Shown piece by piece: positions 9,079-39,423 of a stretch of DNA of 39,423 nt. The notes below the pieces were generated by a model, which did not search any database, was not told the DNA's origin, and saw only the letters and a list, made by a program, of their open reading frames with translations. Numbering within the stretch: the first letter of the stretch is position 1; each line of letters opens with the position of its first letter. The position numbers and the translations under genes were made by a program. The stretch lies in IMG/VR virus record IMGVR_UViG_3300017735_000029, positions 1 to 39,423 of that record; one strand, written 5' to 3'. This stretch comes from a virus.

Positions 9079-12000
9079 TTACGCTGCTGAACCTGAGGAA
9101 CCTACCGTTATTGTCCTAACTTCATAATACTCTACTCCATCGAAGTCAACCAAAACAGGCCTAACGCTCCTTGATATTTCTCCAGCTTCTTTCCACGACT
9201 GGTCCTTTTCTGACGCACCACAACCAGTGCCAGTCAGTTTAGTGACCCTGGTTACCTCGTCTTCATTCCTGCTTATGGAATTACCCTGGGCTATAGGCTG
9301 AGAGCTAGATATATATTCTATTGAGCCCTCCTCATAAGTTTTATCCTTTAAGAAGTGCCCAGGGTAATTAGTTATACTCGTTTGGACCTTGAAGTCTTGA
9401 ACGAAACCAGTGTCGCTCATTATATTGTTAGTTCCCGCTCCGATGGTAACAGTTGAACCTGGTCCTATTGAAAGCTGCAAGTTCGTAGAGGTAACAGAGC
9501 AGGAAATTTCTCCCAGGTCATAAGCTGGATCTTGTATCTCGGGGATGGCACTCCTGCCTTTTACTATTTCTACTTTTATTTTAGCTTTTTTTCGAAGTAT
9601 TCTTTTTGGCTGAACATTTACTAGCGCAATTGTTCCAGATACGCCGCCAGAAGAAACATCTTCTTTAATGAGGTCAACTTCACCTGGGACTTCGACCTCT
9701 ATGTAGTCGTCGTATTCATTTGTTATTCCCTCGATCTCATTCTCAAGTGAAATTATAGTATGCACCTCGTAGCCGTCCTGTTGCTCTACCTTTTTACTAA
9801 CTATAACTCCCTCTGGTTCCTCTTCTGGCTCTCCCAGGTGCACAATGGTCCTCTCCCTTACCGTTGCAGGAAGAGCGGGGTCACCATTTGACTCAGTGTT
9901 TGATATTTCTCCTTTGCCGTGCACGAATGTAAACGCTTCCGTGGGTATACCTTCCTCGTCGCGGACCTCTTTGGATATTAAGAGGGAGTTGGAAATCGTT
10001 GGATCGGGTTCTTCTGAAGGCTGAAATACCTGAATTATCTCTCTCGTAAGCGCAAAATTCCCTTCCTCAAAACCTTTTCGATCATCAGTTGTCCTTGAAA
10101 TTACTGTGTTTGGGAGAAGGAGCGTGAATCTTTTGGTGGGGATCCCTTGAACATTGGACGTTTCCTCTTTGGCTACAATGTGATCGCCCTCGTCGGGGTC
10201 GTCTTCAGGCTTGAATACTTCGGTTAAAATCGCATTTTGAGATCCCACTTTATCTTCACTTCGCGAAAGCTCCACATTCTCTTTTAGAAATGTGTATTTT
10301 TCTGTAGGGATTCCGCCCATATTGGATTTTTCCACTTTAGCTATAACGTAGTCATCAATATTAGGTTCCTCTTCAGGATTGAACCATTCCTCGACTTTGG
10401 CTAGCTGACTTCCCACCCTGTCTTCAGATTCGCTTAACTTTATATTTGCTTTTAGGAATGTGTATTTTTCCGTAGGTATTCCGCCCACATTGGACTTTTG
10501 GACATTGGCTATTTTGTATTCTTCAATCGAAGGCTCTTCTAATGGCTTGAACCATTCCTCAACTTTGGCCAACTGACTCCCTACCTTGTCTTCAGATTCG
10601 CTTAACTTTACATCCTCCAGAAGGAAAGTATAGCGTTTGGTTTCTATTCCGCCGACATCGGACTTTTCAACCTTAGCTATTACATATGCATTTGATGCCG
10701 ACGAAGGTGGCATAGTTGGATCTGAAGTTAGTCCGAACCAATCTTGAACGATAGCTAGTTGAGAACCAACTTTATCCTCAGTTTCACTTAACTTTATGTC
10801 GCTCAAAAGGAAAGTAACTCGTTTTTTAACTACATTATTTATTTCCGATGTTTCCTCTTTGGCTTTTACAAATCCTCCATTCGGAGGAGTAGGATCTGTA
10901 TTCCCAATGGTTTCAACAATAGTTGCTTTCTGACTTCCAACTAAATCCTCAGTCCTTGATATTTCACCATTTCCAGTAGCCTTTACACTTCGGAATAAGG
11001 TGAACCCGTTTTCTTGTCTTTCTGTGGATTCCAGCTCAACATCACCCTCTGCATCGACCTTAGCTCCTAAGGACTCAACGGTAGTAATAGTTAATTTATT
11101 ATTGTTTCTTTTTTCTACAGTCCTTAATATTTCACCATTTCCAGTGGCCCTTACACTTCGGAACAAAATAAATCCGTTTTCTTGCCTCTCAGTGGACTCC
11201 AGTTCAACGTCTCCATCTGCGTCTATTTTTGTTCCTAAGGACTCAACTGTGGTGATGGTTAATTTGCCACTATTTCTTTTTTCAGTAGTTCTTGATATCT
11301 CACCATTACCCACTGCAAACACATTGCGGAACAAAGTGTAGCCATTTTCTTCTCTCTCAGTGGATTCAATTTCTAGTCCTGATGCATTACCTTTGCTTCC
11401 CAAGGATTCTACAGTAGTGATGGTTAAAGAACCCTTGTTGCGAGTTTCTACACTTCTTGAGACTTCTCCTGAGCCGTCTGCAAAAACATTTCTAAATAGA
11501 GTAAAACCGTTTTCTTCTCTCTCAGTGGATTCAATTTCTACACCACTCGCACTACCCTCAGAACCAAGGGACTCAACAGTAGTAATAGTTAAAGCACCCT
11601 TATTCCGAGTCTCGGTAGTTCTAGATATTTCACCAGAACCATTAGCAAATGCATTTCTAAATATAGTATATCCGTTCTCTTCTCTAGTAGTGGCTTCTAT
11701 TTCTACACCACTCGCACTACCTTCACTACCAAGTGACTCAACGGTGGTGATAGTTAATGCACCTTTATTGCGAGTTTCAGTAGTTCTGGAAACTTCTCCA
11801 TCACCCTCTGCAAAAACATTTCTAAATAATGTATAACCGTCTTGCTCCCTTGACGTGGCTTCTATTTCAACTCCCGTTGCACTACCCGCTGATCCTAGGG
11901 ATTCCACAGTAGTAATAACAAGTTTTCCATTATTTCGAGTTTCAGTAGATCGAGATACTTCTCCACTACCATCAGCAAAGACATTGCGAAATACAGTATA

Positions 12001-13179
12001 TCCGTTTTCCTGTCTAGTGGTTGCCTCAATTCCTGTGCCAGTTGCCGTACCAGCAGTGCCAAGTGATTCTACAGTAGTTACGGTAAGTTTGCCATTATTA
12101 CGAGTTTCTGTACTTCTTGAAACTTCGCCAGAACCAGTAGCAAATACAGCCTTCGTAGTTACTATAGCACCTACATTGGAATTCTGCTCGGATATCTTTA
12201 CTCCACTAATTGTACTAACTGGAGTTCCGTTGAACACCTCTACGGTTTGTATTCTTACCTTTCCAATAGAATTAGGTCCAGATTGTCTTTCTTCTATAGT
12301 GCTGGAGAGAACTGCACCATCCCTAAGGAACGTAAAGCGCTTAGTGGCTATACCAACCACATCAGAACTTTCTTCGCTTGCTATACTGTAACCTTCGGGA
12401 GTAGCTGGAGTTCCGTTAAATACTTCTTTTACAATAGCTTTTTGCGAACCTACCTTATCCTCAGACTCAGATAGCACCACATTGTTTTTAAGAAAGGTGA
12501 ACTGCTTTGTAGGGATTCCATCTACGTTGCTGATTTCTTTTTTGGCTTCTGAAAAACCTTCGGGAACAACTGGATCCTGAGCAAAGGTTTCCTGGACAAA
12601 ACTTTTTTGGCTGCCTTTAAAATCTTCAACACTGGATATAATTCCAGGCTGCACGTATACTTCAGTAACCTCTCGGTAACTGTCCGTATCATTAATCTCG
12701 TAAGAAGCTAATTTGCATTCAACTGTTGACTCACTGTCAATCCGCGAATCAATAGAGCTAGTACCAACGGTCCTCTGGAAATCGGTTCCAGCCGCAGCAA
12801 TGCTTTTTCTTGTTACTTTACGTAAACCACTTTCTGTGTAGCTAAAGGTATCGTCCTTTACTTGAACGAAGGAGGACCCTAGTGTAGCGTATACAAGAGT
12901 TACAATGTATTGTTCTTGCTGCGTGCTGGACTGCACGGATACAAGGCGCATATCCGCGTAGGCTTCTCCTTGCCGTGGCCCAAGTCCGTCTATTGATACC
13001 TGCGCTGACTGCAAGGATCCAAAGTCTGGAAAGATCCTGGCCTTGTTCGCACTGTACCAGTCTTCACGACTGTTAATAGTCGTGCAATTAACAGTCAGTT
13101 GATACCTGCCATTTTGAAGCTGTTCAACGGCTGGAGCTCCAAGGAGCTTAAGTCTGCTTGTCCTGTGAGATATTGACAT
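9079..13179 (-). CDS. Giant tandem-repeat fibre-like protein (about 17 units of 55 residues)
   Basis: A 1366-residue protein. After a unique N-terminal domain (about 1-185) come three degenerate units, then seven highly alike 55-56-residue units at about 351-735 (GEVSRSTETRN, LTITTVESLG, REENGYTLFRNVFADG), then seven of a sister type at about 736-1145 (LSESEDKVGSQ, AKVEEWF, GGIPTEKYTFLK). The two types align as one fold: charged strand, hydrophobic strand, variable linker, then an aromatic strand ending in F. A unique C-terminal beta domain follows. The pattern predicts an elongated beta fibre. It starts by TAATG overlap with the LamG tail-fibre gene, so it probably belongs to the same appendage. 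The name is structural inference; I recognise no family. Confidence 0.75.
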   Translation of the reverse strand: MSISHRTSRLKLLGAPAVEQLQNGRYQLTVNCTTINSREDWYSANKARIFPDFGSLQSAQVSIDGLGPRQGEAYADMRLVSVQSSTQQEQYIVTLVYATLGSSFVQVKDDTFSYTESGLRKVTRKSIAAAGTDFQRTVGTSSIDSRIDSESTVECKLASYEINDTDSYREVTEVYVQPGIISSVEDFKGSQKSFVQETFAQDPVVPEGFSEAKKEISNVDGIPTKQFTFLKNNVVLSESEDKVGSQKAIVKEVFNGTPATPEGYSIASEESSDVVGIATKRFTFLRDGAVLSSTIEERQSGPNSIGKVRIQTVEVFNGTPVSTISGVKISEQNSNVGAIVTTKAVFATGSGEVSRSTETRNNGKLTVTTVESLGTAGTATGTGIEATTRQENGYTVFRNVFADGSGEVSRSTETRNNGKLVITTVESLGSAGSATGVEIEATSREQDGYTLFRNVFAEGDGEVSRTTETRNKGALTITTVESLGSEGSASGVEIEATTREENGYTIFRNAFANGSGEISRTTETRNKGALTITTVESLGSEGSASGVEIESTEREENGFTLFRNVFADGSGEVSRSVETRNKGSLTITTVESLGSKGNASGLEIESTEREENGYTLFRNVFAVGNGEISRTTEKRNSGKLTITTVESLGTKIDADGDVELESTERQENGFILFRSVRATGNGEILRTVEKRNNNKLTITTVESLGAKVDAEGDVELESTERQENGFTLFRSVKATGNGEISRTEDLVGSQKATIVETIGNTDPTPPNGGFVKAKEETSEINNVVKKRVTFLLSDIKLSETEDKVGSQLAIVQDWFGLTSDPTMPPSSASNAYVIAKVEKSDVGGIETKRYTFLLEDVKLSESEDKVGSQLAKVEEWFKPLEEPSIEEYKIANVQKSNVGGIPTEKYTFLKANIKLSESEDRVGSQLAKVEEWFNPEEEPNIDDYVIAKVEKSNMGGIPTEKYTFLKENVELSRSEDKVGSQNAILTEVFKPEDDPDEGDHIVAKEETSNVQGIPTKRFTLLLPNTVISRTTDDRKGFEEGNFALTREIIQVFQPSEEPDPTISNSLLISKEVRDEEGIPTEAFTFVHGKGEISNTESNGDPALPATVRERTIVHLGEPEEEPEGVIVSKKVEQQDGYEVHTIISLENEIEGITNEYDDYIEVEVPGEVDLIKEDVSSGGVSGTIALVNVQPKRILRKKAKIKVEIVKGRSAIPEIQDPAYDLGEISCSVTSTNLQLSIGPGSTVTIGAGTNNIMSDTGFVQDFKVQTSITNYPGHFLKDKTYEEGSIEYISSSQPIAQGNSISRNEDEVTRVTKLTGTGCGASEKDQSWKEAGEISRSVRPVLVDFDGVEYYEVRTITVGSSGSAA
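10970..12140. repeat. Seven tandem ~165-bp coding repeats
   Basis: These are the DNA units encoding the seven most similar 55-residue repeats. Neighbouring copies keep long identical stretches (for example around 11360-11520 and 11520-11690), pointing to recent tandem duplication. The bias also creates long spurious antisense frames. Confidence 0.9.
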
Positions 13180-27979: not shown

Positions 27980-28180
27980 TTATTCATCTTCGTCGTCCCA
28001 GACGACCTCCACGGAGTCATCCTTGAATTCTAGGGCAGCTTCTCTCATAAGCATCCTAGCTACGGAAACGGTCGTGTAATCGGACTGCACTTCTCCTGAT
28101 TCATCCAGGACAATGATCATATAATTAGGGTAGTATTCCCCCAGGATCTCCTTTAGCTTACCTAGAACTTCTTCGTCCAT
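27980..28180 (-). CDS. Small acidic protein between terminase subunits
   Basis: A 66-residue acidic protein (MDEEVLGKLKEILGEYYPNY; ends VEVVWDDEDE). It starts in a TAATG overlap with the small terminase gene. The core YMIIVLDESGEVQSDYTTVS looks like a short alpha-beta fold. Similar small acidic proteins occur between terS and terL in other podoviruses. Function unknown. Confidence 0.65.
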   Translation of the reverse strand: MDEEVLGKLKEILGEYYPNYMIIVLDESGEVQSDYTTVSVARMLMREAALEFKDDSVEVVWDDEDE

Positions 28181-28770
28181 TAAGCATCCTCTTCTATGTC
28201 AATGACTTCCGCTTCTTCCGCCAGGGCAGCCTTGACCTTTGCAATCTCCTTGGCGTAGTCCTCGTCCGAGAAGGACTTGCGCTCTTCCACTATACTGGTA
28301 GCTTCGCCCCTGGCAGTGAGGGCTTCCCTACTAGCGTTGATCTTAGCTATTGAAAGCTCCTTTAGGTCCTTGAAGGATACCTGCATGTCTGGGTCGTTCT
28401 GCATTCTGTCTCGGACCTTCTCTATGAGGTCCTCCTCCAGGCTGGACATATTGACGTAGTTCCTGGCAGCTAGCTTACCCCCGAGTTCCTTGAACTTCTT
28501 AATGTGATCCGCGAACTCTACCATTATATGCACAACGGTATTCCTGGGGATCTTATAGTGCCGCACTATTCTAGTCTGGCTGTTGCCAGTGCTGAACAAA
28601 TAAAGCACCTTGGCTACCTTCTCAGGATTATGCCTGGCTAAGGACTTCACCTTTCGGACCTGCATCTCCTCTGCGTATTCCTGCACGGCGGACCTGATGT
28701 CCAGCATCAACTCTTCCTCGATTTCATCGAAGGCATTTTTTTCTTCATTTTTGGGGTTGACTTCTTTCAT
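28180..28770 (-). CDS. terS: Putative terminase small subunit
   Basis: A 196-residue protein with a helix-turn-helix at about residues 60-82 (GNSQTRIVRHYKIPRNTVVH), a long helical middle (EDLIEKVRDRMQNDPDM) and an acidic tail ending VIDIEEDA. First gene of the late arm and immediately upstream of terL, the usual place for the DNA-recognition subunit that selects phage DNA. It is driven by the strongest promoter found here (28797-28825). The ATG has no clear Shine-Dalgarno. The assignment rests on HTH plus context. Confidence 0.75.
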   Translation of the reverse strand: MKEVNPKNEEKNAFDEIEEELMLDIRSAVQEYAEEMQVRKVKSLARHNPEKVAKVLYLFSTGNSQTRIVRHYKIPRNTVVHIMVEFADHIKKFKELGGKLAARNYVNMSSLEEDLIEKVRDRMQNDPDMQVSFKDLKELSIAKINASREALTARGEATSIVEERKSFSDEDYAKEIAKVKAALAEEAEVIDIEEDA

Positions 28771-29110: not shown

Positions 29111-29128
29111 TGCTAAAATACATCCATG
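29111..29128 (+). promoter_or_regulatory. Extended -10 promoter fused to the start codon
   Basis: TGCTAAAATACATCCATG: extended -10 TG-C-TAAAAT, then six bases to the ATG at 29126. It matches the cassettes at 6338 and 19861 (consensus TGMTAWAATACRNCYATG). It predicts a leaderless mRNA for the HNH-like gene, which has no Shine-Dalgarno. Confidence 0.65.
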
Positions 29129-29368
29129 ACCTATAAAGAAAAAATTGCTAAGCTCAAAGACAAGGCATACAATGCCAGACCAGAGCAAAAGAAACGCAGA
29201 GCTCAACGTAATAAAGCCAGAAGAGCTGCAATCCGTAAATACGGAAAATCCGCCCTCCAGGGCAAAGATATAGATCATAAAGATGGTAACCCTATGAATG
29301 GATGCAAATCCAACCTAAGAGTTATGTCTATTAAGACTAACAGAGGAAGAAACAATCGACCTAGATAA
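29126..29368 (+). CDS. Small HNH-endonuclease-like protein
   Basis: An 80-residue very basic protein. The N-terminal half is Lys/Arg-rich (RPEQKKRRAQRNKARRAAIR), the C-terminal half has DIDHKDGNPMNGCKSNLRVM, which fits the DH...N...N core of HNH nucleases (H51 region), followed by a basic NRGRNNRPR tail. It is shorter than classical HNH enzymes and lacks zinc-binding Cys pairs. Possible roles: packaging-associated nicking or a host-DNA attack early in infection. It is the first gene of the plus arm, with its own promoter and terminator. Confidence 0.7.
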   Translation: MTYKEKIAKLKDKAYNARPEQKKRRAQRNKARRAAIRKYGKSALQGKDIDHKDGNPMNGCKSNLRVMSIKTNRGRNNRPR

Positions 29369-29369
29369 A

Positions 29370-29393
29370 GCCCCCTTGAGGGGGTTTTTTTTT
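29370..29393 (+). terminator. Terminator of the HNH-like unit
   Basis: CCCCC TTGA GGGGG followed by nine T, starting two bases after the stop codon. Isolates the HNH-like gene as a single-gene unit. Confidence 0.9.
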
Positions 29394-29457
29394 ACGACGT
29401 AGTGAATGCATTACTGGATTGCTGCTGACTGCGATCGACTGACACCCCCACCCCTTT

Positions 29458-29526
29458 ATGACAGCCAATCCTGCGCAAGCTATGCTGCTTCGCTATTATA
29501 GCATACTTGCTTGTATTGGCTCTCAT
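29458..29526 (+). ncRNA. Long hairpin element 1 (possible structured RNA or cis element)
   Basis: ATGACAGCCAAT pairs with ATTGGCTCTCAT (11 of 12), followed inward by CAAG/CTTG and TATGCT/AGCATA with a bulged C, and a 13-base loop. Its outer arms recur in element 2 (30074-30155) as TGAYAGCCA and TGGCTCTCATCA, while the cores differ. Whether it acts as RNA or as DNA is unknown. Confidence 0.5.
29495..29503 (-). promoter_or_regulatory. Possible minus-strand extended -10 inside element 1
   Basis: The minus strand reads TGCTATAAT in the loop and inner arm of the hairpin. No good -35. If active it would make an antisense RNA across the HNH-like unit toward the late promoter. Confidence 0.35.
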
Positions 29527-29547
29527 CAATCGGGCTAATGCTGGGGC

Positions 29548-29566
29548 GACTTTCTATTAGAAAGTC
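29548..29566. repeat. 19-base palindrome GAC...GTC (8-3-8), second site
   Basis: GACTTTCT, spacer ATT, AGAAAGTC: a perfect 8-3-8 inverted repeat 30 bases upstream of the promoter-like pair at 29597. Same geometry and ends as 29046-29064, different core. Confidence 0.6.
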
Positions 29567-29596
29567 TTATACGTATCATTTTGGGCAAATAAGTTA

Positions 29597-29625
29597 TCGA
29601 CCATTTTTTGAATCTGTGAAATAAT
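29597..29625 (+). promoter_or_regulatory. Putative promoter of the 83-residue gene
   Basis: TCGACC (4 of 6 for -35), 17-base spacer, AATAAT (5 of 6 for -10). Predicted start near 29632 gives a leader of about 47 bases containing a GGCAG/CTGCC mini-hairpin. Confidence 0.5.
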
Positions 29626-29678
29626 CTAGTCAGCCAAGGCAGTCTGCCGAAGCACTAACAGAAAAAGAAAGTTCAAAT

Positions 29679-29930
29679 ATGAGTGGTTCTTACACCATCA
29701 AAGTCACATCATCCGTAAAGGATGCCATCCTCAAAGCAGTTGAATCAGAGCACGAAAGAGCTCATGAAGCCGCTTCACTGATCACCTTCAAAGCAGATGA
29801 CTCCTTCGAGGAGTGGACTCGCGTCAACGAGCCAGAGTTAACTCGGCTCAAGAACGCGACTCTGCTTGCCACTGAGATCGGCTACAACTTCAAGTGGAAG
29901 TTGGTCGAGGAAGAAGATTCCGCTGAATAG
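29679..29930 (+). CDS. Small acidic hypothetical protein with own promoter and terminator
   Basis: An 83-residue protein starting MSGSYTIKVTSSVKDAILKA, mostly helical and acidic (ends KLVEEEDSAE). No family recognised. It forms a single-gene unit: promoter-like pair upstream, GNRA-capped hairpin and terminator downstream. The A-rich leader (aaaaagaaag) has only a weak Shine-Dalgarno. Individually wrapped small early genes are often host-takeover or anti-defence genes; that is inference. Confidence 0.6.
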   Translation: MSGSYTIKVTSSVKDAILKAVESEHERAHEAASLITFKADDSFEEWTRVNEPELTRLKNATLLATEIGYNFKWKLVEEEDSAE

Positions 29931-29942
29931 CGACTGTTAGCT

Positions 29943-29970
29943 GACCTGCCCAGAGCAATCTGGGTGGGTC
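29943..29970 (+). other. 3' hairpin with GCAA tetraloop
   Basis: GACCTGCCCAGA pairs with TCTGGGTGGGTC (12 bp, two G-U) around a GCAA (GNRA) loop. No T-tract follows; a true terminator comes 14 bases later. It may stabilise the 3' end or act as a protein or RNA contact. Confidence 0.65.
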
Positions 29971-29983
29971 TTAACAATACAAG

Positions 29984-30010
29984 CTCCGCCAGAAATGGCG
30001 GGGTTTTTTT
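29984..30010 (+). terminator. Terminator of the 83-residue gene
   Basis: CTCCGCC AGAAAT GGCGGGG (7 bp, one G-U) followed by seven T. Confidence 0.9.
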
Positions 30011-30041
30011 GTGCCTATGTATCTGGGTCTATCTACAAATT

Positions 30042-30068
30042 GGGGGGCATACAGGGGGGATACGGGGG
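30042..30068 (+). repeat. Three spaced G-runs (5-6 G each)
   Basis: Runs of six, six and five G separated by six and four bases, each followed by an AYA/AAA-type tail, like three short iterons. A fourth close run for a canonical G-quadruplex is lacking, so any quadruplex would need bulged or longer-loop geometry. Confidence 0.5.
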
Positions 30069-30073
30069 CAAAC

Positions 30074-30155
30074 GTGATAGCCAGATGAACAAAAAACTAT
30101 TTATAGTTTGTGGCAAGAGCCACTATATAGTTTTTCTACATCTGGCTCTCATCAC
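30074..30155 (+). ncRNA. Long three-part hairpin element 2
   Basis: Outer stem GTGAT and GCCAGATG with CATCTGGC and ATCAC (small internal loop), middle stem AAAAACTAT with ATAGTTTTT, inner stem GTGGC/GCCAC around AAGA. The outer arms match those of element 1 (TGAYAGCCA; TGGCTCTCATCA); the core is different but also self-complementary, which supports selection for structure. Confidence 0.55.
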
Positions 30156-30309: not shown

Positions 30310-30726
30310 ATGAAAATACAAATCAATACCGAAGCAGAACTCGACATCGACGCACTAGCAGACGCCCTCGACTCAAGCATTGAGTCGAAGGTTGACGCTT
30401 TCGTCGATTCGGCAATCGATAACTACAATTTCTATGACATCGTTCGCGATCAAATCGGAGATATCGATCTCAGCTACGAAGTCAGCTCATGCATTGACGA
30501 CAGAGACGACTTAGTCGGCAATGACGAAATGGTAGAGGTCGAATCGAGAATTACCGACCTGGAGGAGACAATCGCTCGACTAAGCCAAGCACTGCCGAAC
30601 GCCGAGCTCGCTAAATCGATCACAGCGAACGAAGAGCTGCAAACGAAATACAACGAGCTAGAATCGAAGTTCAAGAAAATGGCGGGACTTGAAGACGTCT
30701 CGGATTACGAAAAGGATCAAATATAA
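30310..30726 (+). CDS. Very acidic hypothetical protein with coiled coil
   Basis: A 138-residue protein from ATG 30310. About 30 percent Asp+Glu. N-terminal DIDALADALDSSIESKVDAF, an acidic middle (SCIDDRDDLVGNDEMVEVE) and a predicted coiled coil at about 78-125 (ITDLEETIARLSQAL, ELQTKYNELESKFKKM). The leader is an A/C-rich tract (acaaaccaaaccaaaaagaac) without Shine-Dalgarno. It has its own terminator. Strong acidity allows a DNA-mimic or protein-interaction role, but nothing proves it. Confidence 0.65.
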   Translation: MKIQINTEAELDIDALADALDSSIESKVDAFVDSAIDNYNFYDIVRDQIGDIDLSYEVSSCIDDRDDLVGNDEMVEVESRITDLEETIARLSQALPNAELAKSITANEELQTKYNELESKFKKMAGLEDVSDYEKDQI

Positions 30727-36466: not shown

Positions 36467-36640
36467 ATGAGATTTGATATGCCAGAAGGTTACATTGGGT
36501 CCGCAATCAAGTGGGCAAGAACGAAGAACGACGCAGTTAAACTAATCCTTAAAAAACTACCAGACTCCCAGGGGTATTGCATTTTCAAGCGAGGCGGAGG
36601 AGGAAAAATAATATCAATAGAACAGATAGAACAAATATGA
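36467..36640 (+). CDS. Hypothetical small protein
   Basis: A 57-residue protein from ATG 36467, starting MRFDMPEGYIGSAIKWARTK; the upstream in-frame ATG (36398) would overlap the previous gene by 49 bases. Basic N-terminal helix, Gly-rich turn (FKRGGGGKIISI). The stop overlaps the diphosphohydrolase start (ATGA). Function unknown. Confidence 0.55.
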   Translation: MRFDMPEGYIGSAIKWARTKNDAVKLILKKLPDSQGYCIFKRGGGGKIISIEQIEQI

Positions 36641-36978
36641 AACTACCAGACTCAGGAAACAGATCAAACTTTAGCACTGGAGCAGTGCGAGATGCAATGC
36701 GAGGCAAGGGGTTACCCAGTCTAATTCCCGTTAGCGCACTCAGGGCCGTAGCCAGGCGCTTTGAAGACGGCGCAGAGAAATACGGAAGGGATAACTGGAA
36801 GAAGGGTATCCCTGTCTCAAGATACGTGGACAGCATTAACAGGCACCTATGGCAATTCATGGAAGAGGATCGCGCAGAGGATCATCTGTCCGCTGTAATC
36901 TGGAATGCCATGTGCCTTTACGAGACAAAAAACAGGATTGACAAGGGGGAATTGCCCAAGGATCTTTATGACTTATGA
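36637..36978 (+). CDS. dATP/dGTP diphosphohydrolase-like protein
   Basis: A 113-residue protein. Seen: FSTGAVRD (residues 12-19), SLIPVSALRAVARRFEDGAE, KYGRDNWKKGIPVSRYVDSI and EEDRAEDHLSAVIWN (76-90). This pattern is the dATP/dGTP diphosphohydrolase N-terminal-like family (MazG-related fold; the EE..ED set fits metal binding). Relatives include MazZ of Z-genome phages. No PurZ- or DatZ-like gene is present here, so base replacement is not supported; a nucleotide-pool or housecleaning role is more likely. Confidence 0.8.
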   Translation: MKLPDSGNRSNFSTGAVRDAMRGKGLPSLIPVSALRAVARRFEDGAEKYGRDNWKKGIPVSRYVDSINRHLWQFMEEDRAEDHLSAVIWNAMCLYETKNRIDKGELPKDLYDL

Positions 36979-38541: not shown

Positions 38542-39423
38542 ATGATACCACAAAATACAGAAGCAGAAGAATGCCTTCTTAGCAGTTTCGTAACTGCAGG
38601 GGGAGCGAGCAAGTTTGATGAAGTGGCTACAATGCTAGAAGCATCAGATTTTTATAAGGTAGAGAATCAAATCATATTCAAGTGCATGCGCCAGATCGTA
38701 GTATCTGGTAATGAGCTGGACGAAATATCATTGTCCGAGGAACTCAAGAAGGACGGCATGCTGGATGAAATCGGTGGCATAGCGGGGATGATGGAGCACG
38801 TCAATAAGACGGGCATGGTCCAGGTTAAGATGTGTGCTGAAATAATAAAGGAGAAGTCCAACCTTCGCCAGCTGATCAAGCAGTTCAGGTCCAGCGTTGA
38901 AGAGATGCAGTCCGAAGTGAAGGACAGCAAGGAAGTCTCCTCGGAAATTGAGAGCCTCCTTCTGGGTCTTAACGACATGTCCGATTGCGACAAGAGTGTC
39001 AAGTCCGCCCTAGCCGAGATACAGGAGGAGTTCGAGAGCATGCTGGACGGGAGCTACGAAGCTGACGTAGTCAAGACGCACATCGATCACCTGGACATCA
39101 AACTGCACGACGGAGGCATATGCATGGGGGAGGTTTGCGTTATCGCGGCTCCTACGTCCTGCGGTAAGTCTCAGTTGGCTCTGAACATAGCTAGCAGGGC
39201 CGTGGACAGGCAGGGCATATCCGCCTTCATATTTTCATTTGAGATGCCCCAGAAGCAAGTTCTCAAGCGAATGATGCACTCTATGTCGGGGGTTAACCCC
39301 AGGAACATAAAAGCTGGATTGATAACTGAAGACGAAAGAGAGAAGGTCCGTCAAAGCAGTAAAGCTGTAGAGGGCATGAACATCTTTACCAGTCACAGCG
39401 TTCGCAATGTTGAAGATCTAATG
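38542..39423 (+). CDS. DnaB-like replicative helicase, N-terminal part (gene crosses contig junction)
   Basis: The frame starts at ATG 38542, is open to the window end and continues at base 1, giving a 436-residue protein. Seen: an N-terminal DnaB-type domain beginning MIPQNTEAEECLLSS, then the RecA-like domain with Walker A APTSCGKS at about residues 203-210 and FSFEM at about 231-235, the position of the FSLEM motif in DnaB. Known: DnaB-family hexamers unwind the replication fork and recruit primase and polymerase. The length is close to the family's usual 430-470 residues. The start has only a weak A-rich Shine-Dalgarno. The gene lies 21 bases after a strong terminator, so it is probably expressed apart from the upstream operon or by read-through. 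No phage polymerase was found, so it presumably loads the host replisome. Confidence 0.93.
   Translation, partial: MIPQNTEAEECLLSSFVTAGGASKFDEVATMLEASDFYKVENQIIFKCMRQIVVSGNELDEISLSEELKKDGMLDEIGGIAGMMEHVNKTGMVQVKMCAEIIKEKSNLRQLIKQFRSSVEEMQSEVKDSKEVSSEIESLLLGLNDMSDCDKSVKSALAEIQEEFESMLDGSYEADVVKTHIDHLDIKLHDGGICMGEVCVIAAPTSCGKSQLALNIASRAVDRQGISAFIFSFEMPQKQVLKRMMHSMSGVNPRNIKAGLITEDEREKVRQSSKAVEGMNIFTSHSVRNVEDLM
39301..39423. repeat. Contig-end overlap, right copy
   Basis: This is the exact repeat of bases 1-123. Joining the two copies restores one uninterrupted helicase frame from 38542 through the junction to 552, which supports circularity. Confidence 0.95.

Follow-up and report, generated by a model that had tools for sequence, protein, structure and literature searches.

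What are two long hairpins with matching arms and different cores, each in front of one small phage gene, and what, if anything, acts on them? The window (the whole stretch of DNA analysed, 39,423 nt) was a 39.4-kb circular, complete phage genome, bases 1-123 being identical to 39301-39423. These identical ends fell inside a DnaB-like helicase gene. The phage was probably marine. The late genes (large terminase and major head protein) were located on the minus strand and the early genes (exonuclease, endonuclease VII, Erf and SSB) on the plus strand; a protein encoded at 36577-36978 matched dATP/dGTP diphosphohydrolase (PF18909, 3.9e-21). The hairpins, designated as H1 and H2, were both intergenic and were positioned where the late and early modules diverge, and the cumulative GC skew had its minimum in this region, at about 30 kb. 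Each hairpin was located between the T-tailed terminator of the preceding small gene and the start of the following gene. The features of the region are listed in Table 1.

Table 1. Features of the hairpin region, with positions in the window
Feature	Position	Strand	Basis or remark
Putative small terminase gene, first late gene	28180-28770	-	Position beside large terminase; without family match
Small HNH endonuclease gene	29126-29368	+	HNH_3 at family cut-off
Intrinsic terminator of HNH gene	29367-29388	+	Terminator scan; upstream of H1
C run	29443-29454 (run proper 29445-29454)	+	CACCCCCACCCC (run proper CCCCCACCCC); accompanies the H1 site in almost every relative
Hairpin H1 (alpha core)	29459-29528		Family covariance model R1, 72.8 bits
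Conserved mismatch in H1	29462 opposite 29522		Alignment; break point between TGAY and AGCY at 29462 and 29463
Recombination junction	29516-29545	+	Comparison with L030
Gene A, 83-aa protein without assigned function	29679-29930	+	Cassette after H1
Intrinsic terminator of gene A	29981-30006	+	Terminator scan; upstream of H2
Three G runs	30042-30068	+	Upstream of H2; tied to the H2 site with any core
Hairpin H2 (beta core)	30075-30154		Same family covariance model, 57.7 bits
Point between TGAY and AGCY in H2	30078 and 30079		Equivalent of 29462 and 29463 in H1
Gene B, 138-aa protein without assigned function	30310-30726	+	Cassette after H2

Both hairpins proved real, and the limits given by the sequence-only reading were within 1-2 bases of those in Table 1. 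As that reading had described, the arms TGAYAGCCA and TGGCTCTCATCA were common to H1 and H2, and the cores were different and self-complementary, the pairs TATGCT/AGCATA, AAAAACTAT/ATAGTTTTT and GTGGC/GCCAC all being found. The left arm was TGACAGCCA in H1 and TGATAGCCA in H2; the right arm TGGCTCTCATCA had two exact matches in the window, in H1 and H2, and none elsewhere there. At full length, the arms of H1 were TGACAGCCAAT (29459-29469) and ATTGGCTCTCA (29515-29525), plus TCA, around an inner stem of GCAAG(C)TATGCT/AGCATACTTGC. Those of H2 were TGATAGCCAGATG (30075-30087) and CATCTGGCTCTCA (30139-30151), plus TCA, around an inner stem of AAAAACTAT/ATAGTTTTT and an apical stem of GTGGC/GCCAC. 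One correction concerned the outer stem, which was mismatched at the fourth position (C.C in H1, T.C in H2), a feature shared across the family. The run of C or G before each hairpin was also present, and so was the single small ORF downstream of each, gene A for H1 and gene B for H2. The C run was a property of the H1 site and the G runs of the H2 site, irrespective of the core type present.

RNA folding compared with dinucleotide shuffles gave z scores of -2.5 and -3.4 for H1 (plus and minus strand) and -6.2 and -6.1 for H2, and shuffling of the cores with the arms fixed gave p <= 0.005 for each. The family covariance model matched only H1 and H2 in the window; both had been included in its training, and the informative part of this result is that the window held no further copies.

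A search with the both-arm pattern found the element at two places in a related contig (L003), and a third copy was recognised upstream on reading its sequence. About 15 related viral contigs had members of the family, from one to three in each. Full copies were carried by 13 of the 29 related contigs examined through neighbour-gene and pattern searches; beyond these, additional full copies were found in L121 and a short form in L075. All copies were located in the same early region, from the HNH gene to the DUF7178 gene C or its equivalent, and the HNH gene was always to the left of H1 in the hairpin-bearing relatives that spanned the region. The arms were 9-14 bp, the arm-to-arm distance was about 37-80 bp across the family, and the hairpins were about 150 bp upstream of the start codon. 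In one contig, as many as three genes in a row had the layout of terminator, hairpin and gene. L124 had three copies, the third of which was a three-way junction on a 14-bp stem. The core types were named alpha (after the HNH gene), gamma (before gene A), beta and delta (before gene B), epsilon, zeta, eta and theta. The proposal of a hairpin family was thus borne out by homologous copies in related genomes, with conserved ends and variable, mostly structured cores.

No convincing copies were found outside the clade. Matching hairpins were absent from Phage C75C1, a named relative, and from the distant relatives that share DUF7178 (L033-L061, many with a putative terS); L033 and L120 gave weak hits only, at chance level. 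Pattern hits in bacterial genomes were rejected as members, scoring only about 24 bits with the family model. A 68-bp TGATAGCCAA..TTGGCTATCA inverted repeat in about 20 isolate phages was rejected at the same score (about 24 bits). This repeat (L129, 2004-2077; L131, 2212-2285; L138, 1349-1422; about 17 more loci) had family-like arms but a single fixed core sequence, and it may be a chance likeness or distant kin. In L129 it was located between terminase-like genes, after a terminator and directly before a large-terminase-like gene.

Alignment of 21 distinct full elements showed that the foot of the hairpin, GA-Y-AGC paired with GCT-V-TC, is the constant feature. The feet were GAYAGCY/RGCTVTC in all aligned elements, and the columns GA, AGC/GCT and TC were invariant (21/21), the mismatch column excepted. 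The bases in that column did not form a standard plus-strand pair in 14 of the 21 elements; they were usually C.A, sometimes C.C or T.C, otherwise T.G and once T.A, and never C-G in the aligned set. The next three arm pairs beside the foot were changed on both sides in 4, 2 and 5 elements. The covariation that the sequence-only reading had proposed to look for in relatives was therefore present as double-sided changes. For all elements pooled, doubly changed pairs were no more numerous than in shuffles (286/500), and the set exceeded the shuffles in cells with double changes (14/500) and in covariation score (9/500), pooled scores being inflated by the relatedness of the sequences. The H2 set alone had five pairs with double changes, a value equally high in 3/500 shuffles. 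The alpha set gave weak covariation only, in part because its alignment did not place paired indels together; matched indels were seen by eye in its inner stems (GCAAG/CTTGC, GCAAAAG/CTTTTGC, GCGCAAG/CTTGCGC and CGAAAG/CTTTCG). The alpha, beta, gamma, eta and theta cores folded better than shuffled cores, and zeta was marginal. Because at least two cores (delta and epsilon) folded no better than shuffles, a structured core is usual but not obligatory.

Comparison with L030 located a recombination junction at H1. On its left side, the window matched the alpha-hairpin copy of L030; on its right side, the match was to the copy at gene A, which has the gamma hairpin. The window lacked the X/Y cassette in between, and the switch was within about 30 bp of the H1 right arm. 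At the H2 site, relatives with beta and delta cores had common flanks upstream and further downstream, and differed over the hairpin itself and the next 40 bp or so. Judged by such comparisons, the copies mark the edges where gene cassettes were lost or whole hairpins replaced. The junctions at the hairpins are seen in the comparison, and any causal role of the hairpin in the exchange is putative.

Other elements were observed near the cassettes. A conserved stretch of about 150 nt (L003, about 11988-12138; L024, 4027-4178; L026, 1634-1785; L172, 1778-1948) was placed between gene A (gene B in L124) and that gene's terminator. Its closing stem was ATCTAATCGAAT/ATTCGGTTAGAT in most cases and ATCTGATTAAAT/GTTTAATCAGAT in L124 (double changes). 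It had no Rfam match and is probably structured, and it may be either a novel small RNA or a short ORF; the window was without it, the flanks being joined. Operator-like repeats between hairpin and gene (L024, 3510-3635; L080, 3870-3932; L026, 1199-1246), with sequences such as CTAATACTGG..CCAGTATTAG and TAGGTGCTCAGGTGTGCAC twice, were different in each relative, and their differences suggest fast-changing regulators of the early cassettes.

Contig ends were recorded at the foot itself. Among 58 contig ends examined, the right-hand ends of five contigs from different metagenome records (L066, L068, L070, L077 and L081) were exactly after TGAY of H1; one further end was 5 nt before this point, and two more contigs (G002 and G009) ended within hairpins. 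The contigs had been picked for nearness to the region, and breaks at some point within it are common among them, so that the information lies only in the coincidence to a single base. Microdiversity alone was ruled out as the cause of these ends, the following bases AGC being invariant. No contig starting at AGCC, on the other side of the H1 break, was found. At the start of L027, a complete Illumina adapter was joined to AGCTAGATG, at the point between TGAC and AGCT in an H2. This public contig (IMGVR_UViG_3300011252_000401) carried the untrimmed Illumina P7 adapter at 1-79.

Repeated contig ends at one exact foot point suggest a DNA cut or stall. A real cut would explain both sides of the point between TGAY and AGCY. 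The contig ends may, however, be polymerase stops, which counts against reading the point as a cut site; such a stop is possible because a stable stem begins directly after the mismatch. A polymerase stop accounts for the ends after TGAY but not for the L027 adapter junction, which could itself represent one duplicated molecule.

The explanation that we favour, tentatively, is a DNA hairpin site that is acted on at its foot, at the edges of exchangeable early gene cassettes. It starts from the family, its conserved feet, its position at cassette boundaries and the recurrent contig ends at the same base, all of which were observed. The copies would be one DNA element, with the hairpin formed as a cruciform or on exposed single strands, and would stand at the upstream boundary of small-gene cassettes that are transcribed independently and can be exchanged, within the clade's early region. 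The recognised part would be the foot, GA-Y-AGC paired with GCT-V-TC, with a deliberate mismatch; the core would need only to bring the feet together and would be replaceable. We infer that a phage or host enzyme for branched or hairpin DNA may act on the foot beside the mismatch, between TGAY and AGCY. Candidate enzymes encoded by the phage are endonuclease VII, the HNH protein and terminase. Breaks or stalls, together with the common arms, would favour cassette loss, cassette gain and core replacement. In this reading the element would work as DNA and not as RNA, and cleavage of its foot, the enzyme and any benefit to the phage are putative. It is unlikely that the element is, more specifically, a structure-recognised, phage-specific DNA site cut between TGAY and AGCY as the junction of an early cassette array, integron-like or packaging-linked and without a classical recombinase.

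Action as RNA is possible but rather doubtful. Transcription across the hairpin, by read-through or from a promoter close by, would then yield an RNA that serves, for example, as an RNase III-type processing site or a small RNA with a conserved foot. The compensatory changes and matched indels fit such an element, and in many copies one strand has a G.U wobble at the mismatch, which RNA tolerates (minus in alpha and gamma, plus in beta). With a lower stem of 13 bp and an upper stem of 9 bp on either side of an internal loop, the layout is also akin to that of RNase III substrates. However, RNase III would not need the invariant GA-Y-AGC foot, and the wobble strand varies between sites, being flipped in H2 of L028 and H1 of L124. 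No Rfam family was above the gathering threshold, and nothing credible was found even at the relaxed threshold of E <= 1. Moreover, the hairpins follow an intrinsic terminator and are upstream of the promoter region of the next gene. With these two results, the earlier ideas of a small RNA or a decoy gained no positive support. In L124, promoter-like sequences (TTGAC-N-TACTGT) were seen by eye downstream of two hairpins, and those hairpins would therefore be outside that mRNA; an automatic promoter scan gave no support for these promoters. The cores of alpha and gamma contain an extended -10 (TATGCTATAAT), but a minus-strand promoter within the hairpin was rejected as a common function, the delta and epsilon cores being without it.

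A cos-like packaging site, at which terminase and the adjacent HNH protein would cut the H1 foot and the other copies would be alternatives or relics, is improbable. H1 adjoins the HNH gene and the putative small terminase gene, the HNH protein gp74 aids terminase in cos cleavage in HK97 (PMC9410871), and five contigs end exactly at the H1 foot. Against this, there are 1-3 copies about 0.6-0.8 kb apart, the contig ends lack the AGCC counterpart across the H1 break, and the assembled window closes into a circle whose overlapping ends fall within the helicase gene. HNH homologues occur in other phages without such a hairpin; the HNH gene was rejected as the hairpin carrier on the same ground. 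If both feet were cut symmetrically, the overhang would be about 60 nt long, and known cos ends are far shorter. Nor do we think it likely that the element is a regulatory or architectural DNA site, placed before each early promoter and with its two arms serving as half-sites for a regulator. Conserved arms around a spacer that varies, in front of some of the small early genes, would suit a regulator, and the ESAS of mycobacteriophages are built on the same general plan (PMC3203893). However, the arm-to-arm distance of about 37 to 80 bp shows no helical phasing, by which phased DNA looping between the arms was also rejected, and a regulator that binds duplex DNA needs neither paired cores nor the mismatch. 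It is distinctly unlikely that the hairpin is a passive palindrome kept by recombination and template switching, the contig ends being sequencing or assembly stops at a strong hairpin. A polymerase stop is expected where the stable stem begins, G002 and G009 end inside hairpins, many contigs end somewhere in the variable region, and template switching driven by hairpins could yield paired cores without selection. Yet the feet do not vary among the 21 elements, whose flanks and cores turn over; a stop on entry does not account for the adapter fused on the far side of the foot in L027, and other contigs read through.

An origin element, which the sequence-only reading had also named, may be present: the GC-skew minimum is at about 30 kb, yet divergent transcription gives the same skew. 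A bidirectional origin with each hairpin on the template of the lagging strand (around the skew minimum, minus for alpha and plus for beta) was rejected, the orientation differing in L028, L067 and L124. A flip-flop of the core, as in terminal-resolution hairpins, was rejected as well, core orientation being constant within each core type. The miniature transposon of the sequence-only reading was abandoned: the two copies in the window were confined to one region, as the family was to one region of one clade, and the flanks (TTTA..ATCG and AACG..CCTA) were not duplicated, so that the hairpins did not resemble MITE or REP elements.

Small host-takeover and counter-defence genes turn over fast in phage early regions, and the swapping of single-gene units is poorly explained outside T4-type phages. 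An invariant foot with a replaceable core at each cassette edge is a concrete, testable device. If the foot is truly cut at one base, cassette exchange would be tied to DNA processing or packaging, and GAYAGC..GCTVTC would be a sequence handle to find such arrays.

Integron attC sites are imperfect palindromes with conserved ends, a variable structured core and unpaired bases, and they border small gene cassettes. Their core sites are R' GTTRRRY and R'' RYYYAAC. The hairpins found here are likewise imperfect palindromes with conserved ends, a variable core and unpaired bases beside small cassettes. They differ in that GTTRRRY/RYYYAAC is absent, the feet being GAYAGCY/RGCTVTC, and in that the cassettes carry their own terminators; no integron-type tyrosine recombinase was found among the 29 window proteins scanned, a subset of the ORFs. 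The HK97 cos site, with its HNH-assisted terminase cleavage (PMC9410871), is similar in that H1 is beside an HNH gene and a putative small terminase gene, and in that contigs stop at a single base; it differs from the multiple copies and hairpin geometry found here, where a genome end at the site is only putative.

The ESAS of Cluster K mycobacteriophages are 17-bp imperfect inverted repeats with a 4-13 bp spacer, located at the translation start beside a 13-bp SAS (PMC3203893). Like the hairpins, ESAS are imperfect inverted repeats whose spacer varies and which precede some of the small non-structural genes, and neither element has an assigned function (PMC3203893). The hairpins had arms of 9-14 bp, long structured cores and a distance of about 150 bp from the start codon, and the 17-bp repeat, the 4-13 bp spacer and the SAS at the start codon were not found with them.

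PeSLs of T4-type phages are described in a citing paper as mobile promoter and stem-loop cassettes (Arbiol 2010 and Comeau 2014, cited in PMC4503421). By that description, both are repeated intergenic stem-loop units among small early genes and are tied to gene shuffling (PMC4503421); here, cassette loss was seen at H1 and a core swap at H2. To judge by the title of Comeau 2014, PeSLs are promoter-terminator composites, whereas the hairpins had no T tail, were preceded by separate T-tailed terminators and had conserved feet flanking non-homologous cores. The sole terminator-like call within a hairpin was the H2 apical stem (30110-30123), with a weak tail. As far as the citing paper describes PeSLs, stem-loop cassettes that lie between genes and move along with small phage genes are thus a known general kind (PMC4503421), and ESAS are a known case of inverted repeats that precede small genes and have a variable spacer (PMC3203893); the hairpin family differs from both in defining features, for PeSLs as they are described there.
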